Source: Desulfuromonadales bacterium (GTDB lineage: Bacteria > Desulfobacterota > Desulfuromonadia > Geobacterales > Pseudopelobacteraceae). Taken from it: 64,000 bases of DNA. Position numbers and translations under genes: made by a program. The notes under the pieces are model-generated. The model was not told the origin of the DNA and searched no databases. It saw only the letters and a list, made by a program, of their open reading frames with translations. This document shows, piece after piece, positions 42,852 to 64,000 of this stretch. How positions within the stretch are numbered: the stretch's first letter is position 1; the number at the start of each line of letters is the position of its first letter. The stretch is taken from the NCBI GenBank assembly GCA_013349405.1, contig DUZS01000005.1, positions 62,001-126,000 on the forward strand, given 5' to 3'.

Positions 42852-44147
42852 TTACACCACGATCTTCGGCAGTTGTTTCGCATACGGCAGATACCGTTCC
42901 ACATTCTTCCTGATTATTTCGAGTAGTTCACCAGCAAACCCGGTTTCCTCACCGGGCAGCAGGCCTGACAAATTGACTGTATCCATGGCTTTGATAAGTT
43001 TTTCAGACATTGTTGTGAGCGTCTTGGCAACCAGCCGTTTCTGCAGGCCGCATCGTTTACACATCTCTGCCAGTTCCCATGGCGAAATATCCTCTGGAGC
43101 AAAGGCATCGCCGATTGCCATGGAAAAATCACGGTCATATTCGGCGGCGTACATGTCGAGATTGAGTAAATCATAGGCAGGTGCCATATCGATGCCTCCC
43201 GGTCCGACGAAGAAAGAGATGTTTTTACCATGGGCATCACTATTGCCGATCAGGAGCTGGAACAGAACCCAATTAAGCATATCCCGCATGGCGGCAGCAG
43301 GAACCCGGCATAGCCGGCAGGAGGCGAAGAGGTCTGGCAGGTTGGCTCCCGATCTGATTACGGCGGCATCTCCACCCTTGCCAAAGGGACGCTCGTATTT
43401 GTAGGTCGGCGGCAGATCCAGCATCTGACAGCCGTCGATCAGGTGCCGGCGGACAACAGTATCACCGGTCAACTCACGGTCGAAGCGTCGTACTACCAGC
43501 ACCGGCTCATCAAAACGGGCAAGGGAAACCTCTGCAACCGGCAGCTTCATACCCTTTGCCAGCTGCATACATATAAATTCGTTGATCACCAGGTGCAAGG
43601 CGCGGGCAGTACCGAACTTCAAGATATGAGTCGAGGCCAGTTCCCCTTCGCCGAACCCCATATGTCCATCCGCCCGGATGAACAGCGGCAGTTTATCTTG
43701 TACGCCTGCGACCGAGAGTCGCGGTTTACCGTCCCATACCGCTATCGACACGATCTGGCGCTGACTGATGCGCGCAGCAAGCTCGTCGGACATCACCAGC
43801 CTGAAGCTTGTCAGCAGTCCATCCCCCCGCTCATCTCCCATCCTGAACGTCAATGCCCCTGTCGTCTCCGCTCCGATGGCAGCAATCAGGCCGAAAACAT
43901 TTGATCGCGAGATGTGGCTGGAGACTGAAAGCTCTTCCAGCCATCTTCCCTCCGGAAGCAGATTGGCAAGAAACCGTCTTACCGATTCGGAGGCACATTC
44001 GCCCGGTTTCAGATGTGGTGAGACGGGGAAACCTCCCCCTTCAAGCCACGACGGAGCATACACCAGACCAAATTGTTCGCTCTTCTCTTCAAGGAGGATC
44101 TTCCCGAGATGTCTGTGATTGAGATCTATCGTGAGATACATAGACAT
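42852..44147 (-). CDS. hipA: HipA-family toxin kinase (module 1)
   Basis: A 431 aa serine kinase of the HipA family; E. coli HipA (440 aa) phosphorylates GltX. Motifs: SVAGVQDKLPLF (nucleotide loop), LVVRRFDRE, the catalytic LIGNSDAHGKNISFF (D and N) and APAYDLLNL (metal-binding D). All key residues are present, so it could be active. Its ATG overlaps the hipB stop (TAATG). It is divergent from a second hipBA set 600 bp away. Confidence 0.9.
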   Translation of the reverse strand: MSMYLTIDLNHRHLGKILLEEKSEQFGLVYAPSWLEGGGFPVSPHLKPGECASESVRRFLANLLPEGRWLEELSVSSHISRSNVFGLIAAIGAETTGALTFRMGDERGDGLLTSFRLVMSDELAARISQRQIVSIAVWDGKPRLSVAGVQDKLPLFIRADGHMGFGEGELASTHILKFGTARALHLVINEFICMQLAKGMKLPVAEVSLARFDEPVLVVRRFDRELTGDTVVRRHLIDGCQMLDLPPTYKYERPFGKGGDAAVIRSGANLPDLFASCRLCRVPAAAMRDMLNWVLFQLLIGNSDAHGKNISFFVGPGGIDMAPAYDLLNLDMYAAEYDRDFSMAIGDAFAPEDISPWELAEMCKRCGLQKRLVAKTLTTMSEKLIKAMDTVNLSGLLPGEETGFAGELLEIIRKNVERYLPYAKQLPKIVV

Positions 44148-45378: not shown

Positions 45379-46614
45379 ATGCCTCGTGAACAAAAAGCAT
45401 ATGTATTCATCTACCTCCCCGGCCAGACTGTTGCCGTCCCTGCCGGAATTTTCACCCACTATCCCGATGATGGCATCGGTCGTTTTGCCTACGGCCTTCG
45501 CTACCTGGAACGCTTCGATGCTCTGGCAGTGGATCCTGTTTCACTGCAACTGGGAGCCGTTTTCAAAGATGCAGCTACAAACGGCGGTCTGTATGGTGCC
45601 TTCCGGGACGCTTCTCCCGATTATTGGGGTCGCCTGGTTATTGCCGCTGAACTGAAGGCTCCTCCTGAATCATTGGGAGAGATGGACTTCCTGCTGCATG
45701 GCAATGCTTCCCGAGTCGGTTGTCTTGATTTCCGTGTTTCACTGGAACAGGGAGAGCCTGAAACAAGACCGCCCTCGTTTCAGTCGTTAGCGGAGATTTT
45801 GGAAGCGGCCAGGCAGCTGCAACATGGTGAACCGGTCAGGCACGACCTTCTTCAACTGCTCGAACAGGGAACCAGTATCGGCGGCGCCAGGCCAAAATGT
45901 ACTGTGGAACGGGATAATGCACTCTGGATCGCAAAATTTCCGGCTCGTGGTGATTCTGTCAACTTTCCCCGGATAGAATATGCAACTATGCTGTTGGCGC
46001 AAGCATGCGGGATAACGATTCCGGAGATTCGCATCATTTCCGTTGGTGATAAAGATGTGCTGTTAGTAAAACGCTTTGACCGTTTAAAAACAGCCTCGGG
46101 CTATCAACGCTTTGGTTTTTTGAGCGCCCTGTCACTGATGGAGTGGGATGAACGTGATCGGACCCAATGGAGTTACCCTGCATTGGCCGATAAGATGCGG
46201 GCCACAGTGCTGGCGCAGTCGGCAGATCTTAAAGAACTATTCCGTCGCATGGTTTTTAATGTCCTCTGCAGGAATACTGACGACCATCCACGCAATCATG
46301 GCTTTCTTTGGGGTGTGAAAGGGTTTGCATTATCTCCCGCATACGACATTGTTCCGACACCGGCACGACGTGGTGTTGGCACCGACTTTTCGCTCGCTAT
46401 GTCTCTGGGTGATCGGGGGAGAGAAGCGACGCTTGCTAATGCAATAAGCCTATCAGCACGCTTTGGCTTGTCACAAAAAGAGGCACAATTTACCATTGAG
46501 GAAATAAAGTTACACGTTGCAACGTGGGAGGAACAGTTTACGTCACAAGCGGTTTCGTCTGTTGACATTGAAGCAATTCGGGCCTGTTTTTTGGGAGCCG
46601 GGACTGTAATCTGA
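45379..46614 (+). CDS. hipA: HipA-family toxin kinase (module 2)
   Basis: A 411 aa HipA-family protein of a different subgroup from module 1. Motifs: GTSIGGARPKCTV (nucleotide loop), LLVKRFDRL, catalytic CRNTDDHPRNHGFL (D and N in the D-D-H-x-x-N variation) and LSPAYDIVPTP. Key residues are kept. Two complete, divergent hipBA sets in 4 kb is unusual. Confidence 0.9.
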   Translation: MPREQKAYVFIYLPGQTVAVPAGIFTHYPDDGIGRFAYGLRYLERFDALAVDPVSLQLGAVFKDAATNGGLYGAFRDASPDYWGRLVIAAELKAPPESLGEMDFLLHGNASRVGCLDFRVSLEQGEPETRPPSFQSLAEILEAARQLQHGEPVRHDLLQLLEQGTSIGGARPKCTVERDNALWIAKFPARGDSVNFPRIEYATMLLAQACGITIPEIRIISVGDKDVLLVKRFDRLKTASGYQRFGFLSALSLMEWDERDRTQWSYPALADKMRATVLAQSADLKELFRRMVFNVLCRNTDDHPRNHGFLWGVKGFALSPAYDIVPTPARRGVGTDFSLAMSLGDRGREATLANAISLSARFGLSQKEAQFTIEEIKLHVATWEEQFTSQAVSSVDIEAIRACFLGAGTVI

Positions 46615-49645: not shown

Positions 49646-50620
49646 TCAAATCGCAACCGAGTGCGGCAAATATTCTTGAATTATCTCTTCTACAAGGTCA
49701 GCCTGTAGTAGATCGCGCCTCCGCTTTAAAGCGTCCCTGTTATCCAGAGTGGCAATCCAACGCTTGATTTTTACAAACGCATCGGGAGCAACAGTATTCA
49801 TTCTCGCCATTCGACCAGTAACCGACACAATCATTTCTGACGTTTTTGGGCGGTCCAGCATCACTCCGGATCTTTCTGCTTCTACGGCAAATAACTCGTT
49901 TTCGTTATCAGTCAGCCTAACCGGATGCGGGTCGCCGCTCTTAGCCGATCTCCGCACGATATCTACTTCAAAGCCCTTGCTGTTGACGGCGGTATAGTGC
50001 TGGTCTTCTCTGCGTTCAAAAGTACGATCTACTTTTTTGAGCAACTCAAGAAACGTGGAGTCCAGTTCATCCATCTGTGCGGTAAAGCCCAATCTTTTCC
50101 GAATATCCCACAACAAGTCAACGTCCATAGTCATCATTGCATCGGTTGATGTGATTCTGACACCGGCGGCAGCTTCGTAAGCATAGAGAGAATAAGTGCC
50201 GATGACCGTAAAATACTCGGACAAGCCAACTTCTTCAATCTTATTGAGAATCTCAATTAACAGATCCGGAGCCCGACCAACGCGCAAAGCCTTATTCATG
50301 CGCTGGTGCCGGGTTATTTCGGCACGGAGGTCTCTAACCCTTTCCTGAGACCGTTCTTTTCGAGCGATAAAATCGGCATAAATGCCTTCGGTTTTCTCTG
50401 ATCGTGGCCCGAGACTCGTTTGAGCTGATCTGGTAGAAGTCCGAATTAAGTAGTCAGTTCCATTCTGTTCTCTCCAAATCATGCCGCCCCTGACTTCTTT
50501 GGCGGATTTACGTGCGGATTCAAGCGCAGTAAAGACAGATTTCGCGTCGATATATTGGCGGAGTTCGTCACCGCTCATCTCGACGATATTGTTTTTCAAT
50601 GTATTTTTCATATTTCGCAT
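49646..50620 (-). CDS. GSU2403-like nucleotidyltransferase-fold protein
   Basis: A ~324 aa protein resembling the GSU2403 family, a nucleotidyltransferase-fold group. Core: IGTYSLYAYEAAAGVRITST, the acidic MDVDLLWD motif, QHYTAVNSKGFEVDIVRR, and a C-terminal ALKRRRDLLQADLVEEIIQEYLP. An N-terminal helical region (residues 1-110) precedes it. ATG 50620 is one of several possible starts (50647, 50611, 50578). Palindromes flank both ends. It is likely a conflict-system component; its substrate is unknown. Confidence 0.7.
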   Translation of the reverse strand: MRNMKNTLKNNIVEMSGDELRQYIDAKSVFTALESARKSAKEVRGGMIWREQNGTDYLIRTSTRSAQTSLGPRSEKTEGIYADFIARKERSQERVRDLRAEITRHQRMNKALRVGRAPDLLIEILNKIEEVGLSEYFTVIGTYSLYAYEAAAGVRITSTDAMMTMDVDLLWDIRKRLGFTAQMDELDSTFLELLKKVDRTFERREDQHYTAVNSKGFEVDIVRRSAKSGDPHPVRLTDNENELFAVEAERSGVMLDRPKTSEMIVSVTGRMARMNTVAPDAFVKIKRWIATLDNRDALKRRRDLLQADLVEEIIQEYLPHSVAI

Positions 50621-50679
50621 ATTACTTTGAAAACATAGCAATAACAAGTATTATTGGAGTGGTTTAGCTTTAACGCAAA

Positions 50680-50708
50680 GAACATTATGCAAAATATGCA
50701 TATTGTTC
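50680..50708. promoter_or_regulatory. 29 bp palindromic operator candidate
   Basis: A palindrome with 12 of 14 pairs, outer arms GAACA/TGTTC and inner TATGCA/TGCATA, lies 60 bp upstream of the GSU2403-like gene. The inner core is the same TGCA-ATATTTT-GCA sequence as in the palindromes past the gene's end. Confidence 0.55.
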
Positions 50709-50806
50709 ACTTTACTTTAAATCGTTCCTGGCCGACAGTAAAGCGGAGCAGGACAATACAATACTCGCTATCAAACAGACCCGGCCAGCAATTGCCAATA
50801 GGTTAA

Positions 50807-50905
50807 AGAACTGTTGAACAGGCAAATATTAGCAAGATCGAGGTGGGGCTAATTCATCAAATCATTTCACCCCTAGCAAGCTTTAAAAGTATGACATTAG
50901 CATGA
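50807..50905 (+). pseudogene. Remnant of an XRE-family HTH
   Basis: The frame reads RTVEQANISKIEVGL, the recognition-helix end of a XRE-type HTH (NISKIExG), then runs 19 more codons to a stop. No start codon or upstream HTH half exists. The rest of 50709-50910 holds no gene. Confidence 0.35.
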
Positions 50906-50911
50906 CACGTA

Positions 50912-50957
50912 GCAAAATATAGAAAAGGCACCTACAATAAAACATTGTAAGTACCTT
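50912..50957 (-). terminator. Minus-strand terminator next to the tRNA-Arg fragment
   Basis: A 14 bp stem on the minus strand (plus 50925-50938 with 50944-50957, two G-U pairs only in the minus RNA) with a five-base loop and a UUCUAUAUUUU tail. It probably ended the original tRNA-Arg transcript. Confidence 0.75.
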
Positions 50958-50964
50958 TATTTAT

Positions 50965-51009
50965 TGGCGTCCCCGAGTCGATTCGAACGACCGGCCCCTT
51001 CCTTAGGAG
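50965..51009 (-). other. tRNA-Arg(CCU) 3' fragment, left attachment site
   Basis: Read on the minus strand from the anticodon loop CTCCTAA through variable loop, T-arm (GGTCG TTCGAAT CGACT) and acceptor strand to encoded CCA. The 5' half of the tRNA is absent; the intact gene must lie right of the window. The wider direct repeat covers 50961-51012. Confidence 0.85.
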
Positions 51010-51150
51010 TAACAAAATTCGAGGTTTCTGCACGTTTCAAAATCTTTCCTTCTTTTTCACAAATCACTCATATCATATTGACATACATCATATTTTAGCT
51101 TAGCATCCATTACAATTCTTTTCATTTTTCTACAATACAGCGCACACATC

Positions 51151-51174
51151 AGAGGTTGCTGTAGAGGTTGCTGT
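51151..51174. repeat. Tandem arm-type sites, left end of element 1
   Basis: Two head-to-tail copies of AGAGGTTGCTGT (51151-51162, 51163-51174) between the left attachment site and the integrase. The same pair recurs at the right end (62083). Confidence 0.65.
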
Positions 51175-51193
51175 AAAAAAGGGATGGGGTCCG

Positions 51194-52474
51194 ATGAAGT
51201 TCACCGACATCTATATCAAAAACCTGAAACCGGAGCCGACGAAGTATTACAAGCGCGAGGCTCACGGTTTTGCCGTCAAGGTATGGCCTTCCGGTGTGAA
51301 GACCTGGGTCTATATCTATACCTTTGAGAGCAAGCGTAAAGAAATGCGCCTGGGGGAATACCCGGCCATGAAACTGGCCGACGCCCGCACCAAGTATAAT
51401 GAAGCCTACGAACTCCACAAGAACGGCAGAGACCCCGGAGCCGAGGAGCGGCAGCAAAAGGAAGAACGCCGCCTTGCGGATACCATCGAAGATCTGGTCA
51501 AAGAGTACATAAAGAAGCATGCCAAAGTCAACAAGCGTTCCTGGAAGAACGATGAACGCCTGTTGAACAAAGAGGTCGTGCCGATCTGGGGCGACCGCAA
51601 GGCCGAGGATATCCGCAAGCGTGACGTCGTGCTGCTTTTGGAGAGCATCGTTGAGCGCGGTTCCCCAGCCATGTCGAACCAGACCCTGAAGATCGTCCGC
51701 AAGATGTTCAACTTTGCCGTTGAGCGGGACATCCTGCAGCACACCCCCTGTACCGGCGTCAAGGCGCTGGCTCCCAACAACAGCCGCGAGCGGACATTGA
51801 ACGAAGCGGAAATCAAGGCACTCTGGGCAAATCTTGATGCCGGTATCATCTCGGATGAAATCAAAAGGGCCTTAAAGCTGATTCTTGTCACCGCACAACG
51901 ACCTGGTGAAGTTATCGGCATGCGAGCCGCCGAGATCGATAAACGCTGGTGGACGATCCCCTCAGAGAGAGCGAAAAACGGCAGGGCGCACCGTGTCTAC
52001 CTGACCAACCTTGCCGTGAGCCTGTTCGGCGACACCAAAGGAAAGGATTTCCTGTTTCCCTGTCCGCATAAAAAGAAGGTCAAGCAGATAGAGGCCCATG
52101 CCGTGGGCGTCGCAGTGCGACGGAATCTGGCCTGGCCGGTCACTGATAAAAATGGAAAGCCTCTGTTCGATACCGACGGCAATCCAGTCACCGAGAACAA
52201 GCTGGGCATCGAACAATTCACCCCGCACGACCTGCGCCGCACGGCGGCAACCTTTCTTGCCAAAATGGGGAACATGGACGAGGTGATTGATGCGGTTCTC
52301 AACCATGCCAAGCAAGGGGTGATCAAGGTTTACAACCAGTATCGCTATGACGCGGAAAAACAGAAGGCGCTCGAAGCCTGGGAACGGAAACTGAACAGCA
52401 TCATATCCAGCAAGGTTGCGGCTAAGACAGCTCCTGTTCCAGCAACAAAGGGCAAGAAAAAACCAGCGGGATAG
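51194..52474 (+). CDS. Tyrosine integrase with DUF4102 arm-binding domain (element 1)
   Basis: A 426 aa phage/island integrase of the P4 type. The DUF4102 arm-binding domain covers residues 1-90 (EAHGFAVKVWPSGVKTWVY), the core-binding SAM-like domain 95-195, and the catalytic domain after 205 with R in TAQRPGEV, HDLRRT, LNHAKQGV and the nucleophile Tyr in VYNQYRYD. GC-rich codon use, unlike the related integrase at 62407. It should act on the tRNA-Arg sites. Confidence 0.93.
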   Translation: MKFTDIYIKNLKPEPTKYYKREAHGFAVKVWPSGVKTWVYIYTFESKRKEMRLGEYPAMKLADARTKYNEAYELHKNGRDPGAEERQQKEERRLADTIEDLVKEYIKKHAKVNKRSWKNDERLLNKEVVPIWGDRKAEDIRKRDVVLLLESIVERGSPAMSNQTLKIVRKMFNFAVERDILQHTPCTGVKALAPNNSRERTLNEAEIKALWANLDAGIISDEIKRALKLILVTAQRPGEVIGMRAAEIDKRWWTIPSERAKNGRAHRVYLTNLAVSLFGDTKGKDFLFPCPHKKKVKQIEAHAVGVAVRRNLAWPVTDKNGKPLFDTDGNPVTENKLGIEQFTPHDLRRTAATFLAKMGNMDEVIDAVLNHAKQGVIKVYNQYRYDAEKQKALEAWERKLNSIISSKVAAKTAPVPATKGKKKPAG

Positions 52475-52540
52475 AACCTTGCTGACTTTTTCGCATAAAA
52501 ATTGTTTGCTCAAATATGACTTGTGAGGTATATATCTTCT

Positions 52541-52894
52541 ATGGCATGGGACATTGAATACACCGATGAATTCGAATCCTGGTGGGAAGATCTGACGGCA
52601 GAGGCTCAGATTGATGTTGATACGGTGGTGGGACTTCTTGAGGAATGCGGCCCCAATTTGCCGTTTCCATATTCATCAGGGGTAAACGGTTCAAAGCACT
52701 CCCATATGCGAGAATTGCGGATTCAGCATCAAGGCCGGCCACTGCGAGTTTTGTATGCTTTTGATCCAAGCAGGGCTGCAATCTTGCTGGTAGGTGGAGA
52801 TAAAACCGGCAACAATCGCTGGTACAAGACACATGTGCCGATTGCCGACAGACTGTATGACGAATACCTGGACGAAACGAAACAAGGGAGGTAA
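52541..52894 (+). CDS. higB: HigB/RelE-type toxin
   Basis: A ~117 aa toxin of the phage-derived Gp49/HigB type: EYTDEFESWWEDLTAEAQ, MRELRIQHQGRPLRVLYAFDP and LLVGGDKTGNNRWY. ATG 52541 or an in-frame GTG at 52523 may start it; neither has a strong Shine-Dalgarno. The toxin-first order with the HTH gene 5 bp downstream is the HigBA arrangement. Probably a ribosome-dependent mRNase. Confidence 0.85.
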   Translation: MAWDIEYTDEFESWWEDLTAEAQIDVDTVVGLLEECGPNLPFPYSSGVNGSKHSHMRELRIQHQGRPLRVLYAFDPSRAAILLVGGDKTGNNRWYKTHVPIADRLYDEYLDETKQGR

Positions 52895-52899
52895 AAATC

Positions 52900-53226
52900 A
52901 TGGTAAAACCCTACAGCGCGTTACGAGCGAAGATGACTCCAGAGGCCCGTGCCACGGCTGCGGAACAGACCCGTATACTTCTACAGGAGATGCCGCTTCA
53001 GGAGTTGCGCCAGGCACGGAGAATGAGTCAGGAACAAATGGCCAAAAACCTTCATACCCGGCAGTCGAATGTTTCCCGGATTGAGAAACGGACAGACATG
53101 TATATATCTACATTGCGGGGTGTCATAAAAGCCATGGGCGGAGATCTGGAGATTGTGGCCCGTTTCCCCGACGGCAGTGTCCGGATTAACCAGTTTGAAG
53201 AACTTGATGAGGCGCTGACGGCCTGA
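52900..53226 (+). CDS. higA: HigA-type XRE antitoxin
   Basis: A 108 aa protein with a helix-turn-helix in LRQARRMSQEQMAKNLHTRQ followed by SNVSRIEKRTD. It lies 5 bp downstream of the toxin gene with GGGAGG upstream. It should neutralise and repress the pair. Confidence 0.87.
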   Translation: MVKPYSALRAKMTPEARATAAEQTRILLQEMPLQELRQARRMSQEQMAKNLHTRQSNVSRIEKRTDMYISTLRGVIKAMGGDLEIVARFPDGSVRINQFEELDEALTA

Positions 53227-53368
53227 CCGCATATGGCACGATCATTCAAAAAAAACCTGATATTGAAATTGCACCCACCCTGACCCCAATGGTTTCTCTG
53301 CCATATTTCTTGTCGATCAAGATATTCAATTGTTTGTGTTCAGTTGACACTCAATGTGAAGATTGATT

Positions 53369-54442
53369 TCAACTATCCAAGAGTTTTTTAACCGCAAAAA
53401 TGATTGAAAGAAGCTTATTATCACTCTTTCGAGAAAGTGTGGTAGTAGTAAAGAAATTTCCATTCTCTTCTTTGTAATAGACCACCCGGAAAATTATAGT
53501 TTCAGAAGCTTGACAATTAGAAAAATAGAAAATATCGCGAAATACTGTATGGGATGAAACAGATTTTAATTGGTAACCAGATAGACAAAAATCAGAAATT
53601 ATTGGATATGATGCAAAATACAATAATCCTACACCATTTATGTCGGAATATGGATTAATTTTGTATTCGCATTCATATACTGAATCATGATTAATTTCAA
53701 AATTCCACCCTTTTGAAGAATGTACTTCAACTAAGTTCTTTTTTAATAGTCTATATTCATTTGCGAAGACAGGAATCTCTTTATAATTTACAATTCTACT
53801 TTCTCCCAAACCTTCACTGCTCACTAAATTATTATTTTTACCCTTAACTGAAAATGTAGTCATTATTTGTGCAGTGATATTGTTCTTATCTGAAAAACCA
53901 TTTATTTTGGATAAAAACGAACTTTTCCCAAAGCCTTCAAGCTCAGATTCAAATTTTAGGAATTCATTCTCAGAAAAATTATTTAAGGGACTTGTTTCAA
54001 AACAAATCCTTAAAAAAGTTGCATAAACTCTATCACTTGACGAATCTCTGAATTCAGAGGATTTCTTTCCAAAACCGACACTCAGAAGCTGCCAGTGAGT
54101 ATCTCCTAAATATTTTAACAGCCAAAGCTCAGAAAGTGCCGAATTGGCCATTTGAGGCATTCTGATTTCTACTTCATCTTCATAATGAATTACCTCATAG
54201 CAAATACTGTCTTCTTTTAGTTCTTGGCCGCGATTGTTGTGGAAATATTGGAGGGCCTGACCAATGTTCGCAATTTCAAACCATTTTTCATCTTTTATCT
54301 CGTGATTAAAGTGCCTTTCTAAAATAATTCTCAACTCTACAAGATCAAGACTATCTGCGCTCGTCTCTGAAATAGGCAGGTACAGTTCTTCTTCAGAGAA
54401 GCCACTAACAACTTGCTGAATTATTTGTAAGTATTGTTTCAC
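53369..54442 (-). CDS. Acyl carrier protein fused to LnmK/Pnap_2097-like hotdog domain
   Basis: A 357 aa protein. Residues 1-72 look like an acyl carrier protein: ADSLDLVELRIILERHF carries Ser31 in DSLD, the phosphopantetheine site. From about residue 85 comes a region resembling Pnap_2097/LnmK-family double-hotdog proteins (SALSELWLLKYLGDTHWQ, then GFGKKSSEF), which act on carrier-bound acyl groups in natural product pathways. GTG start at 54442 overlaps the previous stop by one base. Very AT-rich. Last gene of the four-gene operon. The hotdog assignment is recalled from memory, not searched. Confidence 0.6.
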   Translation of the reverse strand: MKQYLQIIQQVVSGFSEEELYLPISETSADSLDLVELRIILERHFNHEIKDEKWFEIANIGQALQYFHNNRGQELKEDSICYEVIHYEDEVEIRMPQMANSALSELWLLKYLGDTHWQLLSVGFGKKSSEFRDSSSDRVYATFLRICFETSPLNNFSENEFLKFESELEGFGKSSFLSKINGFSDKNNITAQIMTTFSVKGKNNNLVSSEGLGESRIVNYKEIPVFANEYRLLKKNLVEVHSSKGWNFEINHDSVYECEYKINPYSDINGVGLLYFASYPIISDFCLSGYQLKSVSSHTVFRDIFYFSNCQASETIIFRVVYYKEENGNFFTTTTLSRKSDNKLLSIIFAVKKLLDS

Positions 54443-55134
54443 TAGGAAAAGTCACTAATGTCGAAATCGTCCACTTCAGCTTTACTATTTTCACCGATTA
54501 TAATTCCAGCCACTAGCTTACTAGACCACTCTTGATGTGGTGCAGCTAGGGATAAAGTTGCATATATTCTGTTTCTTCCGTTTAGGATGCCATTATTTCT
54601 TTTATACTGGTCGAGGAAAACAGGGTCAGTAATCGGAAAGTTGTACGGATTGCCCCTATATCTAAATGAAAGTTTAATTTGAGGATACGGCTTACCTTCA
54701 AAGACCCTTTCGTTAGTTTCGAATTCTTCCAACAATACTAAGGATAAGGAGTAACTCAGCTCACCGATTTTTTCCTCTGGAACAGCAGCCCCCCTATTTC
54801 CAAACAGTGAAGCATATCTGTCATTATCGATGAGTCTTTCCAAGACTGCTATGTCAAGCCGACCAACTGTCTTAATAGTATTTGAATTGAATAAGACATT
54901 TTCCGTTTGATGGTCATGCCCAGTCATTTCTAGCTCATCGAACTCAACTACATCTAAGAGATTAATCCCTGATACAAGTCGTACAGGGACCTCCTCATGC
55001 TCAGCATTGAAAACTGGCCGTACCCATTTGGGCCGCCCACTCTGTAAAATTGGAATGTTCTCTTGGTTAAGCTCAATCCCGCCAACGCAGCGCCCCCCAA
55101 CCCTAAATGAATTGGCTAAACAAAGAATTTTCAT
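54442..55134 (-). CDS. Dual-OB-domain protein
   Basis: A 230 aa protein resembling the dual OB-containing domain family: MKILCLANSFRVGGRCVGGIEL, LLDVVEFDELEMTGHDHQTEN, LFGNRGAAVPEE and KLSFRYRGNPYNFPITDPVF. OB folds suggest nucleic-acid binding. ATG 55134 is 4 bp after the DUF488 stop, with AAGGTG upstream. This family is often next to DUF488 genes, as here. The molecular function is unknown. Confidence 0.65.
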   Translation of the reverse strand: MKILCLANSFRVGGRCVGGIELNQENIPILQSGRPKWVRPVFNAEHEEVPVRLVSGINLLDVVEFDELEMTGHDHQTENVLFNSNTIKTVGRLDIAVLERLIDNDRYASLFGNRGAAVPEEKIGELSYSLSLVLLEEFETNERVFEGKPYPQIKLSFRYRGNPYNFPITDPVFLDQYKRNNGILNGRNRIYATLSLAAPHQEWSSKLVAGIIIGENSKAEVDDFDISDFS

Positions 55135-55138
55135 AACA

Positions 55139-55582
55139 TCACCTTACAAGATGGATAATTTTAATGTCGTCGTTAGCTTTCTTGAGATATTCAGCAAGCA
55201 ACCTTCTATGACACATATCAGGTTCATGCTCACTACACAAAATGCAACATCCGTCTAGCTCATCAAAGTTTATTTTTTTCAATATATTCCTTCTATTTAA
55301 AATTCCAGTGTATTCAACTTCATATTCTTGCCAAGAAATGTTTTTATCTCTGTATTTATCAAGCAACTCTTTTGTCGGAGCAAGATTTTTGTCGTGCTCG
55401 TAATCAGCATTAGCAATTTTCCTGGCGAAAAATTTTAAATCTCTTCCCTTCGCAAATCCTGCTAGTTGAGAGACATTGTTTAGTCGCGTGTCAAGAATTT
55501 TTTTTACACCTGCGGATAGAAGTAATCCAAAAAATTCTTCTGCGGACTTCTCGGTAAAACCAATAGTAAATAACTTAATCAT
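55139..55582 (-). CDS. DUF488 family protein (short)
   Basis: A 147 aa DUF488 protein: FTIGFTEKS, ILDTRLNNVSQLAGF and the C-terminal CSEHEPDMCHR motif with paired Cys and HR. ATG 55582 lies inside the end of the upstream DUF488 gene (8 bp overlap); the frame to 55603 is less likely. DUF488 is a small family of unknown activity with a conserved, likely catalytic, Cys/His site. Confidence 0.8.
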   Translation of the reverse strand: MIKLFTIGFTEKSAEEFFGLLLSAGVKKILDTRLNNVSQLAGFAKGRDLKFFARKIANADYEHDKNLAPTKELLDKYRDKNISWQEYEVEYTGILNRRNILKKINFDELDGCCILCSEHEPDMCHRRLLAEYLKKANDDIKIIHLVR

Positions 55583-56207
55583 AACCGCCTTCCTTCTCGC
55601 CAATTGAGTATGGCGAATAACCTATTTCTTTGTTTTTCAACCTATATGCAACAGCCAATTGCTCTTCGATGGTAACAACGTTGAATAAATCACTTTGTGG
55701 TAATTTTTTTTCGTATTTCTTTAAGAGCGTTTGTTCTAATTCTGTATTAGTTTTTACTGATTTGTCTTTTAGAATATGCTTTACTTCAATCCCATCTTTT
55801 TCTAAGCCGACAGATACCATTGAAAAACGATGGCAGTCCAACGGCTCGGATTCGGAACACATAACTGCAATTACAAAGTTTTTTTCTATCCCTTGCCAAA
55901 TTCTTTCTAGCCCCTGCTTGAAAACCCAAGATTTTCTAACTAAAACAAAGTCTAATTGACCATTTTCATCCAAAAGGCTTGAGTCTGTTTGTCTCGCACC
56001 AAATTCTTCAGCAAAACTCAAATATGAAATCTGATGACTTTTTAGGAATGATTTAAATGGTTCTTTATTAAATTGAGGATTATAGGCGCTTGCTGGCACA
56101 CTTCTTACGTCCACGATGCAATTAATGTTGTACTCCCTCAACAGTTCAAGGAAATAATCAATTGGGTGCGTCGAGTGTCCAATTGTATAAACTATAGGCT
56201 TATCCAT
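55575..56207 (-). CDS. DUF488 family protein (long)
   Basis: A 210 aa DUF488 protein: YTIGHSTHPIDYFLELL, IVDVRSVPASAYNPQF and CSESEPLDCHR, plus a ~50 residue C-terminal extension beginning SVKTNTELEQTLLKKYEKKL. Both the DVR and CxxxxPxxCHR motifs are kept. First gene of the AT-rich four-gene operon. Two DUF488 genes in a row suggests a heterodimer. Confidence 0.82.
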   Translation of the reverse strand: MDKPIVYTIGHSTHPIDYFLELLREYNINCIVDVRSVPASAYNPQFNKEPFKSFLKSHQISYLSFAEEFGARQTDSSLLDENGQLDFVLVRKSWVFKQGLERIWQGIEKNFVIAVMCSESEPLDCHRFSMVSVGLEKDGIEVKHILKDKSVKTNTELEQTLLKKYEKKLPQSDLFNVVTIEEQLAVAYRLKNKEIGYSPYSIGEKEGGYD

Positions 56208-56358
56208 ATTAATTAAAAGATTAATCCATGAGTTGCGGTTTTAAAAATAAGGATAGGAATTTGCTTTTTTGACTGGACGGAAAATACACCCGTCACCGGA
56301 TAGTGTCAAAGCAAATTCAGTGGAAATGACGATATTTAAAGGAGAACAGAGAACCAAA

Positions 56359-56784
56359 CTATCTGCCATACCGCCTGTAATCATTTTTTGTTTTCGCCCG
56401 ATGCTCAGCATTTGTCAGTAATTGCATATTGGATGGTGTATCAGCGCCACCAGCGTAGAGCGGCTTTTTGTGGTCAACCTGATAACCCTTTGGAACCTTT
56501 GACATACCACGATTTTTTAGAAAATTGTTCCGTGCGGACATATTTCTGGCAATCTTGCCATTATCTGTTCTTTGGACACCACCAGGACTGTATGGTTTTG
56601 GGTTGTTAGTATATCTCTTTGGTGATGCTGGAATACGGGGAGTTGAAGGTGTGTAGCTATAAGATTTTGGTGAATATGTACGACTGCCCGAATGCGCTCG
56701 GTTCCCGCCGCCTCGGGTAAAACCTTGTGAAGGCAAGGCAAGAAGCAGCATACAGATCAATATGGATGAGATGAATTTGTTCAT
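56359..56784 (-). CDS. Exported HNH endonuclease-like protein
   Basis: A 141 aa protein with an N-terminal signal peptide (residues 1-23, KFISSILICMLLLALPSQG), a Ser/Pro/Tyr-rich linker (24-85) and a C-terminal HNH-type segment: VDHKKPLYAGGADTPSNMQL then NAEHRAKTKND. D-H, N and H of the motif are present. Likely secreted to the periplasm. It lies 150 bp upstream of the DUF488 operon on the same strand. Confidence 0.72.
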   Translation of the reverse strand: MNKFISSILICMLLLALPSQGFTRGGGNRAHSGSRTYSPKSYSYTPSTPRIPASPKRYTNNPKPYSPGGVQRTDNGKIARNMSARNNFLKNRGMSKVPKGYQVDHKKPLYAGGADTPSNMQLLTNAEHRAKTKNDYRRYGR

Positions 56785-56863
56785 TGCCCGTTTACCCCAT
56801 TATGCTGCCTGAACCTGAACGACGGTTTATTTCAAGTTGCCAGAACAAGTCCTGGCGTTGCTG

Positions 56864-56968
56864 TTAGCGCCATACGCCCGTAAGAAGAGAGGGATAGAGA
56901 AGCGGAAAACGGGTACGCAGCAAATTGGCCAATGATTTTTTGAAGCTGGTTTCGGAGGTTGAGGTCAT
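56864..56968 (-). pseudogene. N-terminal fragment of an AAA ATPase-like gene
   Basis: ATG 56968 with AAGGAC upstream opens TSETSFKKSLANLLRTRFPL, like the N-terminus of some AAA-family ATPases, and stops after 34 codons. The rest of 56785-57265 has no gene. Confidence 0.3.
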
Positions 56969-57265
56969 AAAGATGTCCTTATGGAATCTTAGCGAGAGGA
57001 TTGAAACACATTTCAAAAATACAACACGCTGGTATCTGACTGAAAATGCGAGGGTAAGAAGTCTATAACATTTATTTGTAAGCGAATGCAACCCTCCAGA
57101 CACAGTGGGAACTAACAGTAATTGATATAGATTTGCTTACATTCGCAATGACTTAACAAAACGAGACCGTGACCGAGAAAATTTTAAAATATCTATAGCA
57201 CAGCACTGCCAAAACCGCCAAAAGCCCTTCTGACAGTTTTGACAGTGCCGTCCTTCAGGAATCCA

Positions 57266-59692
57266 TCAGAATTTTATGCCCGGATTCAGCCGTATCCGTT
57301 CCGTCGGCCTCCCCCCAGTCTGTTCCTTCTCGACCGCCAGCCAGTCATATTCAACCAGCACCTCAATCCCGGCCTTGACCTCTTCCGACGAGGTGAGCTT
57401 TGACCATTGGGGTCGCCAGATTTCGCGCAGCGTTGCGCCATCCCTGATTGCTCCCCGGCGGAGATGTTTGATGATTTCCCGTGCAGCTTCCATCCCCGGA
57501 GCTGTCATTCCTCCGTAAAGCCTGTATGCATGGCTTTCCAGATAGTCGCACCATGCTGTTGCCATGAGTGCCGCCTGTTCTGATACCGCTCCCGGTTCAT
57601 TCCCGTCAGCCACGTTTACCAGATGGAATATCAAGGCCAGCGACGGCATCAACTTACGATACTTCGTCAGATGGCTTTCCAGCGCCGGTGTCAGACCGTG
57701 GTCACTTCTCAGGCGCATTTCCAGATCATGCCGCCAGGTGTCGAACACCTTCTGTCCACCTGGAGAAAAGCGCAGTGCTGGAATTGCCGCCCCTTCTTCC
57801 ATTACAGCTCCAGGAATATCCCCGGATAGTAACTTGAATATCTCCCAGGCCCGGTTTTTCTCCACGGTGTCAGGGAAACGGTCAACGTTCTTCCACTCTG
57901 CCGGTGCATCAGGCCAGACGAAAACCTGAAAGCGTTGCAGCAAACCATCATCACCATTGCCGCCCCGATTGGCCTGATAGACATATGATGAGAGCGGCCC
58001 TGGTGTGATGGCCCCGAAGATGGAGATGCAGAGGGCGGCAATATCCATGGTGCCGCGTCCGATCCGGTCGTAGGTGAAACCCCGGTTTCCGTTCCAGGCT
58101 TCCAGGTAGAAGGCCCGGTCTCCCTCCCTGCCGTCCCGGTCCAGGGAACGGAACCAGCCGATCAATTCATCACGATTGACCAGCAGGCCACGCGGATTTT
58201 CATTGAGCAGTTCGCCGATTTTCTCGACGGTGCCGTCCTGGGTCTGGAAACGCTGCCGTTTGGGTTCATCCAAGGTCAGTGTCAGCAGTTTTTCCCGCGC
58301 CTCTTCGATCATCACGGCATTGCCCTTCCTGGCAGCCTTCTTAATGTCGTCGGTTATCGCGGATTTCTTGACCTTCTGGATCTCCCTATCGATCTCGAAC
58401 TCCTGCGTCGCATTCAGATATGCTTCCCGTGCTTCCGATTCCAGTCGGACCAGGTGCCGGTGTGCCTCTGACACAGCCGGGGTTTTCATCAATGACGGTC
58501 GGCCTACGACCGCACCCCATAGGTTCGGCACCACCAGCCAGTCATCATGCCGTTTCGGATGGATGCCGCAGCCGCGACCGATGATGCTTCCCAGCGCCAC
58601 AACCGCAGCAGCCGCTGAGAAGTCCGGCGGAATCTGCATCCGGTCGGCAATATCCATCAGCCAGCCACGCAGGGGAAGAGGGATCATCTCCGGGTGGAGC
58701 GGTTTCACTGGCGGGAGGCCGTCCGGCAGCGGTATCGGTTCCGACCAGTGATCGGCATCTTCAGTGCTCTCGACTCGGTGTGCCGGTACGTTCTTAATAT
58801 TTCTTGCCGTCTCGATGCAGTTCCTGACAGCTTCCGATCCGGCCAGTCGTGCCAGATCATTGAAATCGGTATCCTGTTGTTTCCTGGTGTCAGGAAAACT
58901 GGGAGCTGCCAGCAGGCCATCCACAGATCGTGCCGCTGCGGTTGCTTTGGTCAGGCCGGGATTGCCAACGGTGGCATGATCGTCATCAGCACAGATGACC
59001 AGGATGGTATCGGGATACTTTTTCTTGAGGACTTCTGCAACAGGTTTCAGGTTGCCGGCAGAGAAGGCGCAGGCCACGGCATGGCCGGTTATCTCGTGCA
59101 GGGTTGCGCCGGTGGCGAATCCTTCGGCAATCAGGATCTTCCCGTTCACCTTGCCGATGGCATGGTAGCAACCGGCAACGGCGGTGCCGCTTTTGAAACG
59201 TTTGGTTCCATCCGGCATGATGAATTGCAGTCCGTGAAGCGTGCTGCTGGCATCACGAACCGGAACGAGGAGGGAGTCATACCACTGCCGGATGCCGAAT
59301 GGCTGGATTGTTTTTGCCGCCAGGTAGGGATGTTTCATGTCAACGTCACGGGCCTTATCCCACAGGTTCGCTGATTTTTTCCGGCAGCTTGACCTAATTT
59401 CCGCCTCTATTATGGCGGCCTCTTCTTTTGCTTGTTTCACTCGCACCTGGAAGGCAGCTTGTTCTCCAGGTGTCCTGTTCGTTCTGGACTGCCAGTCTTC
59501 TGATATCGCCTGACGCCAGCAGCCATAGACACCACCTTCACCATCTTCAAAAAGCTTGCACCACCCGGAATCATCTCCTTTCCGGTCATTGGTGGCAAAG
59601 CGCACCATCTTGCCCGGCAGGATCGCCATGATCGGCGGTGAAGCCCCCAGGGTTGCTTGAATTGTCTCGGCAAATAGTTCCACTTCATTCAT
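57266..59692 (-). CDS. Toprim/DUF3987 replication-type protein
   Basis: An 808 aa two-part protein. Residues ~50-300 are a Toprim primase-like region (KILIAEGFATGATLHEITGHA, ILVICADDDHA) as in mobile-element primases. Residues ~340-790 are a DUF3987 domain (helicase-like ATPase group), with a Walker-like GRPSLMKTPAVSEA and NRGGNGDDGLLQRF. ATG 59692 overlaps the DUF5659 gene stop by eight bases. It is likely to serve replication of the element after excision. Confidence 0.85.
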   Translation of the reverse strand: MNEVELFAETIQATLGASPPIMAILPGKMVRFATNDRKGDDSGWCKLFEDGEGGVYGCWRQAISEDWQSRTNRTPGEQAAFQVRVKQAKEEAAIIEAEIRSSCRKKSANLWDKARDVDMKHPYLAAKTIQPFGIRQWYDSLLVPVRDASSTLHGLQFIMPDGTKRFKSGTAVAGCYHAIGKVNGKILIAEGFATGATLHEITGHAVACAFSAGNLKPVAEVLKKKYPDTILVICADDDHATVGNPGLTKATAAARSVDGLLAAPSFPDTRKQQDTDFNDLARLAGSEAVRNCIETARNIKNVPAHRVESTEDADHWSEPIPLPDGLPPVKPLHPEMIPLPLRGWLMDIADRMQIPPDFSAAAAVVALGSIIGRGCGIHPKRHDDWLVVPNLWGAVVGRPSLMKTPAVSEAHRHLVRLESEAREAYLNATQEFEIDREIQKVKKSAITDDIKKAARKGNAVMIEEAREKLLTLTLDEPKRQRFQTQDGTVEKIGELLNENPRGLLVNRDELIGWFRSLDRDGREGDRAFYLEAWNGNRGFTYDRIGRGTMDIAALCISIFGAITPGPLSSYVYQANRGGNGDDGLLQRFQVFVWPDAPAEWKNVDRFPDTVEKNRAWEIFKLLSGDIPGAVMEEGAAIPALRFSPGGQKVFDTWRHDLEMRLRSDHGLTPALESHLTKYRKLMPSLALIFHLVNVADGNEPGAVSEQAALMATAWCDYLESHAYRLYGGMTAPGMEAAREIIKHLRRGAIRDGATLREIWRPQWSKLTSSEEVKAGIEVLVEYDWLAVEKEQTGGRPTERIRLNPGIKF

Positions 59693-59945
59693 AGGCACGC
59701 ACCTCCCGCACAACTTGGGACGCTTCCCGGTACAGCCTGCTCCTGATATTCAGGAGCCGTTTGGCCGGTTGTTGTGCGCCACTCTCGAAACTGACGATGG
59801 CCTGGTGCAGTGCTTCGGTCACGACAAATTGAAACAGCGCCCTGCGACTGTCAGGGGCGCAACAGATCGTCAGTTCATGGCCTGCGGTTGAAAGGAACGC
59901 GGCCAGGTCGATGGACTCTGTTCTGAATACTCGTGTACTGGTCAT
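59685..59945 (-). CDS. DUF5659 domain protein
   Basis: An 86 aa protein, VFRTESIDLAAFLSTAGHEL at the N-terminus, matching the DUF5659 pattern found in mobile elements next to primase genes. It overlaps the replication gene. The function is unknown. Confidence 0.65.
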   Translation of the reverse strand: MTSTRVFRTESIDLAAFLSTAGHELTICCAPDSRRALFQFVVTEALHQAIVSFESGAQQPAKRLLNIRSRLYREASQVVREVRAYE

Positions 59946-59952
59946 GGTTCGC

Positions 59953-60138
59953 CTATACCCTTTCCCGGCTGTTGAGCCATTCTTCCACTTCGGAGAGCAG
60001 CCACCCCACCGAAGCCCTGTTCAGCCGAACCCGTGCCGGAAACAGCCCTGCCTTTTCCATCCGCCACTGGGTTACGGAACTTACGCCGATCATCTCCAAC
60101 AACTCTTTCCGTCTGATTACTCGATTCCTGCTATCCAT
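59953..60138 (-). CDS. alpA: AlpA-family regulator / excisionase
   Basis: A 61 aa winged-helix protein of the AlpA/MerR-like excisionase type: VIRRKELLEMIGVSSVTQWR and SEVEEWLNSRE. It lies 7 bp upstream of DUF5659. Such proteins control integrase expression or assist excision of P4-like islands. Confidence 0.85.
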   Translation of the reverse strand: MDSRNRVIRRKELLEMIGVSSVTQWRMEKAGLFPARVRLNRASVGWLLSEVEEWLNSRERV

Positions 60139-61557: not shown

Positions 61558-62082
61558 TTTCAGTAAGGGGGTTAGTCAGGCGCTGGACGCACCTGTGGTG
61601 TTGAGTTTTACGTCACCTCTGCCCGAGGGGACGACATGGAGGGTGTTTGCTGTCTCGTATTACCAGCATCGGTGTGACGTCCCTGCCGTATCAAAGCCGA
61701 TACGGTGCGGTACTGACGTCACTCAAGGATCACCGGGAAAGGGGCGTGGATGTGCCGGTCTTTCCCTGAATAGTTCATCCCATGCCTGGGGCTTTTCGAT
61801 TCCGGGCAATCCGGAAAAGTCTGTCCGGGGCGCTAAGGCCGCGCGGAGTCTCTTCTTTGAAGAGTCTACAATATGGATTGAAGATAACTGAAGCGGGATG
61901 GGGCGTCAAGAAGAAATTAGCAGGCAACTAGCTGATTATGCTGATATTGATGGATGCTGTTTTGGATGCTTTTTAGGGTACTAAAGGTGCCCCCAAATTG
62001 GTGCCTTATTCGCCACCAAGCACAAAGGGGAATATTTATGCTCCAATGTGGCATCAGGAATGAGCCCTGTACAAAATTACCC

Positions 62083-62106
62083 AGAGGTTGCCGTAGAGGT
62101 TGCTGT
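62083..62106. repeat. Tandem arm-type sites, right end of element 1
   Basis: AGAGGTTGCCGT (62083-62094) and AGAGGTTGCTGT (62095-62106), one base different from each other, matching the pair at the left end in the same orientation. Confidence 0.65.
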
Positions 62107-62120
62107 ATCGATTTTAGACA

Positions 62121-62154
62121 AACAAAAAGGGCTGCAAAACATCTGCAACCCCTT
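62121..62154 (-). terminator. Minus-strand terminator beside the right tRNA fragment
   Basis: An 11 bp stem (plus 62126-62136 with 62144-62154, G-U pairs only in the minus RNA) followed by UUUUUGUUUG. The element carries it with its tRNA 3' end, so that a tRNA restored by integration keeps a terminator. Confidence 0.7.
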
Positions 62155-62162
62155 GTTTTTAT

Positions 62163-62207
62163 TGGCGTCCCCGAGACGATTCGAACGTCCGGCCCCTTCC
62201 TTAGGAG
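62163..62207 (-). other. tRNA-Arg(CCU) 3' fragment, second attachment site
   Basis: The same segment as at 50965, from the anticodon loop to CCA, with two differences that swap the 51-63 base pair of the T-stem (U-A to A-U), so the stem is kept. The 5' half is absent here too. Confidence 0.85.
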
Positions 62208-62351
62208 TAAATGTATATAGTTGTTTCAAATGGTTTCCATCATCCTCTATCATACCCACTAACCCACCATAAAACCTTGACATTTAAGCGTTTATCCTGT
62301 ATTTTAGATTCATGTTGGTTCAATTGAAATCAGTGAAGCACAGCATTCTAT

Positions 62352-62386
62352 TACAGCACTACTACAGCATGACTTGTTGTGCTGTA
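62352..62386. repeat. Possible arm-type sites of element 2
   Basis: TACAGCA at 62352 and 62363 and inverted TGCTGTA at 62380, just before the second integrase. TGCTGTA is shared with the boxes of element 1. Confidence 0.35.
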
Positions 62387-62406
62387 GTCAGGAACAGGGG
62401 GACGTT

Positions 62407-63681
62407 ATGAAGGTTACAACATTTACCGACACCATGATTAAGAAGCTGAAACCGGAAGAGAAAAAATATACTCGATCCGAAGGCAACGGCTTCACAATAC
62501 GTATAATGCCTTCTGGCGTCAAGTCATGGCTCTACCTTTTCAATTTTGACGGTAATCGTCTTGAAATGAATTTCGGCATTTATCCTGTTGTTTCCCTTGA
62601 GACAGCACGACAAAAATTTGAAGATGCCAAGAAGAAAGTTAAAAACGGTATCAACCCAAAAGAGGAAGAAGAGAACAACGCAGAGGCCAGACGCAAAGCT
62701 CCCACTGTTGCCGATCTTATAGACGATTACATCAACAAACACGCCAAGAAGTTCAAAAAGTCATGGAAAGATGATGAACGACTTTTGAACAAAGAAATAA
62801 TTGCTGAAGCTAAATGGGGTAAGCGTAAAGCTGCTGATATTACCAAGCGTGATATGACACTATTACTTGAAAGCATCGTTGATCGTGGCACACCAGCCAT
62901 GAGCAATCAAGTTTTAAAGATTGTACGCAAGATGTTCAACTTTGCCGTTGAACGTGACATCTTACAACACACACCATGTACAGGCGTTAAAGCTCTTGCC
63001 CCCAATACCAGCCGTGAACGCACCTTGAATGAATCCGAAATAAAAACCTTATGGGGAAAGCTGAATAATGCCGCTGTATCCGATGAAATCAAGGGAGCTT
63101 TGAAACTAATACTGATTACAGCACAACGCCCTGGAGAAGTTACAGGGATGCACACAAGCGAGATTGACGGGCAATGGTGGACTATTCCCGCAGAGAGATC
63201 AAAGAACGGTAAGGAACATAGAGTCTATTTGACTGCTACAGCACTTGAGATCATCACCGAAGCAATAGCCCAAGCCAAAAAAACACGAGAAATGCCAGCA
63301 GATGCAAAATACAGCGGTTATATTTTCCCATGTCCTCATAAAAAGAAAATTCAGTCCATTGATTCACATGCTTTGCCTGTTGCTGTCAGACGTAACCTTG
63401 CATGGCCGTTGAATGATGATAAGGGGAAGCCTCTTTATCTGGAGGACGGCACACCAGCAACCGAGAACAGATTAGGAGTTGATCAGTTCACGCCCCACGA
63501 TCTACGGAGAACAGCGGCAACATTCATGGGCGGTATGGGTTACATGGATGAAATAATTGACGCCATACTCAATCATGTCAAACAAGGCATCATCCGCACA
63601 TACAACCGCCACGGATACGATAAGGAAAAACAGGAAGCTCTTGAATCATGGGAAAAGAAATTAACCACCATAGTTAGCTGA
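62407..63681 (+). CDS. Tyrosine integrase with DUF4102 domain (element 2)
   Basis: A 424 aa homologue of the integrase at 51194, similar over its length, with identical stretches such as NFAVERDILQHTPCTGVKAL. Catalytic residues: TAQRPGEV, HDLRRT, LNHVKQG and Tyr in TYNRHGYD. ATG 62407 (GGGGGA upstream) rather than the ORF start at 62374. Far more AT-rich codons than the first integrase. It has ~25 residues near 285-315 that the first one lacks. Confidence 0.93.
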   Translation: MKVTTFTDTMIKKLKPEEKKYTRSEGNGFTIRIMPSGVKSWLYLFNFDGNRLEMNFGIYPVVSLETARQKFEDAKKKVKNGINPKEEEENNAEARRKAPTVADLIDDYINKHAKKFKKSWKDDERLLNKEIIAEAKWGKRKAADITKRDMTLLLESIVDRGTPAMSNQVLKIVRKMFNFAVERDILQHTPCTGVKALAPNTSRERTLNESEIKTLWGKLNNAAVSDEIKGALKLILITAQRPGEVTGMHTSEIDGQWWTIPAERSKNGKEHRVYLTATALEIITEAIAQAKKTREMPADAKYSGYIFPCPHKKKIQSIDSHALPVAVRRNLAWPLNDDKGKPLYLEDGTPATENRLGVDQFTPHDLRRTAATFMGGMGYMDEIIDAILNHVKQGIIRTYNRHGYDKEKQEALESWEKKLTTIVS

Positions 63682-64000
63682 AACGTAAACCACACACAGT
63701 ATGCCAGTCCCATCATCTTCCAAGGAATCATATTGTATATATTTGAACACAATGTATCTGCTCTTGTACTGACACATATAGTGATCACTTGTTGCCGATA
63801 GCCTGAAATCATTTTCATCAGTTTGAATGCGTCTTACATGCTTGATCATTTTTTCAAAAGTTTCATTTTTGACAGTTTCAAAGTACGCAAGGGCACAGTG
63901 CGTAAGTCTAAGAAACTTCACATGTGAATTTGGTTTTCCTGCATACCGTTTATTCAGCCAAGCAACATAATCGCTGAACTCCAGCAATCCACCCTTTTCT
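63661..64000 (-). CDS. Hypothetical protein (partial at window end)
   Basis: A frame open from the window edge to TAA 63661, at least 113 codons; the start may lie beyond 64000. It contains LEFSDYVAWLNKRYAGKPNS and SATSDHYMCQYKSRYIVFKY. Its 3' end overlaps the integrase end by 21 bp, convergent. AT-rich, probably cargo of element 2. No family is recognised. Confidence 0.5.
   Translation of the reverse strand, partial: EKGGLLEFSDYVAWLNKRYAGKPNSHVKFLRLTHCALAYFETVKNETFEKMIKHVRRIQTDENDFRLSATSDHYMCQYKSRYIVFKYIQYDSLEDDGTGILCVVYVSANYGG

Follow-up and report, generated by a model that had tools for sequence, protein, structure and literature searches.

An acyl-carrier-LnmK fusion gene joined to a DUF488/DuOB operon in a tRNA-integrated island: a possible variant of the candidate defence system PDC-M45

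Why should two DUF488 proteins and a dual OB-fold protein be encoded together with an acyl carrier protein (ACP) fused to a hotdog enzyme? The question is raised by four adjoining genes in a stretch of 64,000 nucleotides from a Desulfuromonadales bacterium (contig DUZS01000005.1, positions 62,001 to 126,000; hereafter the window). We argue that the four genes are an acyl-carrier variant of PDC-M45, carried as cargo by a tRNA-integrated island. This is the best explanation that we can offer for the whole, and we give it a probability of roughly 0.45; some of its parts are considerably firmer than others.

According to the list of open reading frames (ORFs) of the window, positions 53369-56207 are filled by four minus-strand ORFs. 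These encode DUF488 protein 1 (55575..56207, 210 amino acids), DUF488 protein 2 (55139..55582, 147 amino acids), the dual OB-fold protein DuOB (54442..55134, 230 amino acids) and the ACP-LnmK fusion (53369..54442, 357 amino acids). For DUF488 protein 2 the longest ORF comprises 154 amino acids from a TTG at 55603, and most relatives use a start, MIK, that matches the internal ATG at 55582. With the latter start, the first two genes overlap by 8 bp, the second and third lie 4 bp apart, and the third and fourth overlap by 1 bp. The fraction of G+C (GC) is 0.36-0.42 across 53001-57000, whereas the adjoining 2 kb on the left have 0.51 and the right side has 0.51-0.59; AT-rich DNA is also found about the two island ends (50001-51000 and 62001-64000, GC 0.42-0.43).

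The first three genes are readily assigned. Both DUF488 proteins match PF04343 of Pfam (62.8 and 70.6 bits, cut-off 22.2), the second also exceeding the cut-off for DUF488-N3a, and the 230-residue protein matches DuOB (PF22557 of Pfam; 139.1 bits, cut-off 27). DUF488 protein 1 has DVR at residues 33-35 and CSESEPLDCHR from Cys117 through Cys125 to Arg127; protein 2 has DTR and CSEHEPDMCHR, and at 8/8 of the four-gene loci described below both motifs, DxR and Cys-loop, are retained in the two proteins. In PADLOC, DuOB corresponds to PDC-M45A (9.9e-32), DUF488 protein 1 to PDC-M45B (5.7e-55) and DUF488 protein 2 to PDC-M45C (1.8e-59). By these profile matches the three-gene core (the trio) is already catalogued as the candidate defence system PDC-M45. 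The ACP-LnmK protein has no match among the PADLOC models at E <= 1.

That fourth protein is, more specifically and as judged from its sequence, of LnmK type with a carrier domain fused to it. It scores 129.6 bits against LnmK (TIGR04098 of NCBIfam, cut-off 100), and the relatives at L006, L007, L008 and L011 score 129.8, 136.2, 124.3 and 100.4 bits (L002, L003 and L005 fell outside the scan); the cut-off for the Pnap_2097 family (TIGR04099, 125 bits) is narrowly missed, at 123.7 bits. The predicted LnmK-type double-hotdog part spans residues ~85-355, with Tyr140, Asn269 and Tyr275, and fold comparison places it with PDB 4HZN at 16-17% identity to LnmK. Profile alignment relates the DxNGVGLLYFASY segment of LnmK to the protein (36.8 bits). 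The 278 homologues found at E <= 0.001 were represented by the best 120; among these matches listed, residues 269, 270, 272-275 and 277 are identical in 120/120 and Tyr140 is present in 120/120. The active-site tyrosine of LnmK is Tyr62. The carrier domain occupies residues ~1-75, with Ser31 in the motif DSLD, and Ser31 is retained in 118 of the 119 filled rows among the matches listed. Several ACP models match this N-terminus (best 1.1e-8), and with a profile of 22 relatives the match to solved ACPs reaches 8.8e-07. In the AlphaFold2 (AF2) model the predicted local distance difference test score (pLDDT) is ~50-60 over residues 1-40. LnmK has a carrier protein partner, LnmL, a parallel to the fused carrier domain. 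A thioesterase identity was set aside, the thioesterase fold ranking second-best. That the hotdog domain is nevertheless an acyl-ACP thioesterase or sensor rather than an acyltransferase/decarboxylase, with the fused ACP regulating the trio according to acyl supply, seems improbable to us.

The original prediction had been drawn from the letters of the window and its ORFs. Its account of four tightly coupled minus-strand genes was borne out in positions and spacing, with DUF488 protein 2 read from the ATG at 55582; so was its account of a base composition unlike that of the neighbours, directly on either side (GC at least 0.51), with the island ends AT-rich too. The assignments of two DUF488 proteins and a dual-OB protein proved correct, the DVR-like and CxxxxPxxCHR motifs and the Ser31 of DSLD are all present, and the proposed search of the 357-residue protein gave LnmK above its cut-off and an ACP match, though one below curated cut-offs.

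We then asked how often the four genes occur together. An alignment of 22 ACP-LnmK homologues (A1) was used to scan a genome collection and yielded 65 loci. Seven loci beyond the window (L002, L003, L005, L006, L007, L008 and L011), from Bacteroidota and Ignavibacteriota, have the identical four genes in identical order, the fourth gene being interrupted in the deposited sequence of L011; each of the seven genomes has exactly one DuOB match. In all eight loci the fourth gene directly follows DuOB, with gaps of at most 58 bases. Since the four genes stand in the same order at seven other loci, their co-occurrence goes beyond chance. The expectations that DUF488 and dual-OB genes form a recurring set, that the ACP/hotdog gene belongs with them and that all four would be found together elsewhere are thereby supported, the first also by trio loci beyond the window. 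The original interpretation is supported in part; its suggested handling of an acyl or thio group on a carrier, and a use as anti-phage cargo, are hypotheses. The sequence of L004 starts 141 bases ahead of its ACP-LnmK gene. In the other 57 A1 loci, among them L009, L010, L012 and L013, the trio was not found within the available DNA, which is short for some. In the phylum of the L007 genome, A1 matched 214 of 395 genomes, full-length in two (G397 and G400, both already found in the scan of the genome collection), and the other matches among those listed were carrier-sized, at 19-26 bits. The evidence suggests that the phylum of the window's host is a different one.

A second test of co-occurrence compared contig-size fingerprints. 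A fingerprint here is the exact size of the longest contig (at least 2900 bases); it is blind to gene order, and single matches may be due to chance. Among the matches listed, 22 of 97 ACP-LnmK homologues share a fingerprint with a DUF488B homologue and 1 of 97 with the GlmU list that served as control. The lists hold the best 120 of 278 ACP-LnmK, of 6927 DUF488B and of 1317 GlmU matches, so cases may be missed.

The partners of the fusion also differ from their counterparts elsewhere. Trees were built from the eight four-gene loci together with loci that DuOB retrieved from two phylum samples (18/395 and 11/395 genomes with a match). The four-gene loci fall on one side of a single branch both in the tree of DUF488 protein 1 (34 rows, support 100/100, on a long stem) and in that of DUF488 protein 2 (31 rows, 100/98). 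Pairwise identities of the four proteins across the eight loci are correlated (r = 0.45-0.90), for which common ancestry of the loci alone would be sufficient. DUF488 protein 1 has Ala39, Leu79, Ser129 and Lys149 in 120/120 homologues among the matches listed; these are nearest matches by design, and show fixation within the group rather than an unbiased sample. At the same positions the 26 comparison rows have mostly Tyr/Phe (22), Tyr (26), Leu/Ile (20) and Gly (18). A proviral record of IMG/VR (L172:8007-9759), with the order DUF488-DUF488-DuOB, branches in the DUF488 tree as the sister of this group, but the positions of Ala39 and Ser129 are held there by Tyr and Ile; the record ends at DuOB, so that any fourth gene would lie beyond it. 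In the AF2 model of DUF488 protein 1 (pLDDT 87.2), strand 113-117 terminates at Cys117, the following helix begins at His126 and bears Ser129, and Ala39 lies in the loop past Asp33 and Arg35. We read this as a predicted remodelling of the DUF488 protein 1 pocket in the four-gene group. A fold search with the model placed dual-specificity phosphatases among the top matches, mixed with signal recognition particle GTPases; the matches are weak, none reaching E <= 0.001 and with template modelling scores of ~0.37 or less.

These results bear on two alternatives. If the fourth gene were an unrelated passenger hitch-hiking with the trio, one would expect what is indeed seen, namely ACP-LnmK proteins that exist without the trio and sporadic cargo in a mobile island; the constant order and short gaps at 8/8 loci, the separate grouping of both DUF488 partners and the fixed changes in DUF488 protein 1 speak the other way, and we regard a passenger as highly implausible. 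A second alternative keeps the gene but makes it a detachable effector: the trio would sense or process foreign nucleic acid, and ACP-LnmK, once activated, would drain (methyl)malonyl-coenzyme A (CoA) through loading and decarboxylation, so that lipid synthesis is starved and growth halts (abortive infection). The predicted LnmK-type loading and decarboxylation would suit this, as would the constant place of the gene after DuOB, where an effector might have been added on. A stoichiometric carrier would, however, drain little without release of its acyl product, the fixed changes in DUF488 protein 1 favour a shared substrate over a detachable effector, and a helicase takes the corresponding place in L096 and L097; we consider such an effector unlikely.

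Given the observed gene set, order, conservation, partner grouping, mobile setting and part families, we conclude that the four genes very probably form one functional unit. What that unit does is less secure. ACP-LnmK probably forms an acyl-S-ACP, a prediction that rests on family membership and modelled fold: the LnmK domain would load (methyl)malonyl from CoA onto a 4'-phosphopantetheine arm at Ser31 of its own ACP domain and would decarboxylate the loaded group to propionyl- or acetyl-S-ACP. DuOB may present a substrate, either the end of a nucleic acid or a compound of nucleotide type, and both DUF488 enzymes, Cys-loop proteins presumed to be rhodanese- or phosphatase-like, would act on the substrate so held. 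The acyl group might then pass to the substrate on the DUF488/DuOB core, where the surround of the DUF488 protein 1 active site is altered in the four-gene group. Genomic context makes it somewhat the better guess that the unit takes part in conflicts with phages or with rival elements; transfer of the acyl group to nucleic acid or a nucleotide, likewise suggested by context, is a tentative guess and less likely than not. The complete scheme, a conflict system in which propionyl- or acetyl-S-ACP is made and the DUF488/DuOB core passes the acyl group on to the ends of DNA or RNA, or to sugar or phosphate termini, is speculative and on balance doubtful. If acyl groups were placed on DNA or RNA ends, those ends would be marked, capped or poisoned, and polyketide-type acyl-carrier chemistry would be acting on nucleic acid.

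Several observations weigh against the preferred reading of an acyl-carrier variant of PDC-M45. The ACP models all score under their curated cut-offs (TIGR00517, 34.9 vs 70.45; PF00550, 17.1 vs 20.8), Tyr140 aligns to the LnmK tyrosine only in a weak segment (7.4 bits), and pLDDT in the AF2 model drops below 50 both at 29-34, around Ser31, and at 269-275, in the conserved LnmK segment. The DuOB tree (29 rows) puts L095 and L099, which are without the ACP gene, inside the four-gene group with weak support, and the same two loci drew a long-branch warning in the DUF488 protein 1 tree. At L009, L010, L012 and L013 no trio accompanies close relatives of the fusion, in genomes without a DuOB match, and the fourth gene is therefore not confined to the trio; the L004 genome likewise gave no DuOB match, although incomplete genomes may miss genes. 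No firm solved relative was found for the DUF488 proteins or DuOB, the structural search having covered DUF488 protein 1 only. Finally, 6/10 scanned neighbours of four-gene loci match no PADLOC family, and of six element proteins four match none and two match weakly.

The mobile setting is clear, in agreement with the integrative element of the original prediction. Two copies of a 53-nucleotide repeat (50960..51012 and 62158..62210, 96% identical), corresponding to the 3' part of tRNA-Arg(CCT), enclose an 11.2-kb element that holds the four genes. A different contig of this genome carries an intact tRNA-Arg(CCT) gene, which from its position 33 on matches fifty of the repeat bases (right repeat 100%, left repeat 96%). 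The element encodes a tyrosine integrase (51194..52474, plus strand, Pfam), a Gp49-type, toxin-like gene with a helix-turn-helix gene between integrase and cargo (52523..53226, plus strand, Pfam), a TOPRIM primase-DUF3987 replication protein (57266..59713, minus strand), an AlpA-type small gene resembling an excisionase or regulator (59953..60138, minus strand) and a small HNH protein. Integrase, excisionase-type gene, primase and flanking tRNA repeats are traits of islands of the P4 or phage-inducible chromosomal island (PICI) kind. The full-length 357-residue protein is found in 1/76 family genomes, this one, while three others match the carrier part only; the cargo is thus sporadic. A second, related tyrosine integrase gene lies at 62374-63681, ~11.2 kb from the first (248 nucleotides at 72%), and the two related integrases and common tRNA-Arg(CCT) repeat make it likely that elements stand in tandem within a single tRNA site. 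A 26-nucleotide repeat near each integrase gene (51138-51175 and 62082-62107) possibly represents integrase arm-type sites. To the left of the element are two HipA-type proteins (42852-44147 and 45379-46614; HipA_C, 155 and 176 bits) and, just outside it, an NTP_transf_8 nucleotidyltransferase (49646-50647, 153 bits).

Neighbourhoods elsewhere bear on a further alternative, in which the product of the four genes is a small acylated molecule derived from a nucleotide or sugar, a signal or antiviral metabolite, and nucleic-acid polymers are left untouched. In its favour, some ACP-LnmK relatives have biosynthesis-like surroundings: at L009 a NAD_binding_4 (reductase-type) gene precedes the relative, the same gene cluster recurs at L010 and L013, and at L014 the relative is fused to a Vat/CatB-like acyltransferase domain. 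Against it stand the RecQ helicases fused to DuOB at six loci and the methylase, restriction and CRISPR genes beside DUF488/DuOB trios. At L095, L088 and L100 the trios without the ACP gene have as near neighbours an HsdM-type methylase, a weakly DndB-like gene and an N6/N4 methylase, respectively, and L104, whose DuOB match is short and below cut-off, has an adjoining HEPN_Swt1/DUF499 protein; on an Allochromatium plasmid (L184, 5310-7034) a DuOB/DUF488/DUF488 trio (DuOB 1.5e-50, annotated as hypothetical) is set among Csm6, Csx16 and Cas1 genes. The four-gene sets themselves come after a type I restriction gene with GmrSD close by (L007), before SoFic (L006) and close to a PD-Lambda-2_B-like gene (L011); two PADLOC matches at L008 (subtilase, PDC-M43B) are of doubtful meaning, and the scanned neighbours at L002 and L003 look ordinary. 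No gene cluster beyond the four genes is common to two four-gene loci (BLASTP, 1e-5), which also counts against a small-molecule product, and a plain biosynthetic cluster was set aside on the same ground. We judge a small-molecule pathway unlikely.

Separately, L003:11082-12976 encodes, in overlapping frames after the four genes, a DNA-topology-modulation-like kinase and a methyltransferase with a weak Prim-Pol match. At L014:9251-11050 hexapeptide acyltransferase, ACP and LnmK domains share one chain, and the alphaproteobacterial loci of the A1 scan contain further long ORFs with an LnmK domain. In IMG/VR, DuOB had no relatives, whether searched as single sequence or alignment, and ACP-LnmK had two distant ones without trio matches; DUF488 protein 1 had 11, four of them with the trio (L172-L175) and with no ACP gene in the DNA available. 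Among plasmids, 36 records match ACP-LnmK, all below 60% identity and two with at least 80% coverage, most of the best 20 of the 36 in the LnmK domain only, and 82 records match DUF488 protein 1. Among phages, one weak DUF488 match is common to seven Gordonia phage records.

To our knowledge the chemistry of DUF488 enzymes has not been established. With a conserved partner that is probably a maker of acyl-S-carrier, fewer roles are open to this DUF488 branch, and there is a direct biochemical handle on it. Should nucleic acid be the acceptor, its modification would be of a new kind; should the acceptor be a metabolite, a new small molecule would be linked to a defence candidate. Literature searches found no publication on DUF488 with dual OB, PDC-M45 or Pnap_2097, and no relevant title on acyl carrier protein with anti-phage defense; the former search did not include a 2023 superfamily survey, and the four-gene set may already have been published.

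Among known systems, PDC-M45 is closest: homologues of its B, C and A proteins are adjacent in the window, which differs in having ACP-LnmK as a fourth gene and in DUF488 partners that group apart from other trios. According to PMC11811056, the PDC names denote candidates of Payne et al. 2021 that are unpublished. LnmK/LnmL of leinamycin biosynthesis (TIGR04098; PDB 4HZN, 6X7L) shares with the fourth protein the double-hotdog fold, the DxNGVGLLYFASY segment and the score above cut-off, whereas the window fuses carrier and enzyme and supplies DUF488 and DuOB as partners. The malonyl-ACP decarboxylase MadA/MadB, as described in PMC8666670, is likewise a decarboxylase of hotdog fold whose substrate is an acyl group on an ACP, but has a single hotdog domain per chain (PF09500) and serves housekeeping fatty-acid synthesis. 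The loci with RecQ-DuOB and a DUF488 pair (L090-L093, L096 and L097; three were scanned with Pfam) make up 6/21 of those having DuOB and DUF488 but no ACP gene. They have the same DUF488 pair and DuOB as the window, in L096 and L097 also in the order DUF488-DUF488-DuOB, and differ in the presence of the RecQ helicase and the absence of ACP-LnmK. RecQ is fused at either end of DuOB, beside the DUF488 pair, and these loci form a branch of their own within the candidate system. The survey of the Rhodanese-phosphatase superfamily by Burroughs and Aravind in 2023, taking in DUF488 and DuOB, is said to have predicted DNA-end processing in conflict systems for the clade. The contrast between RecQ-bearing and ACP-bearing branches offers a route to the function of their shared DUF488/DuOB core.

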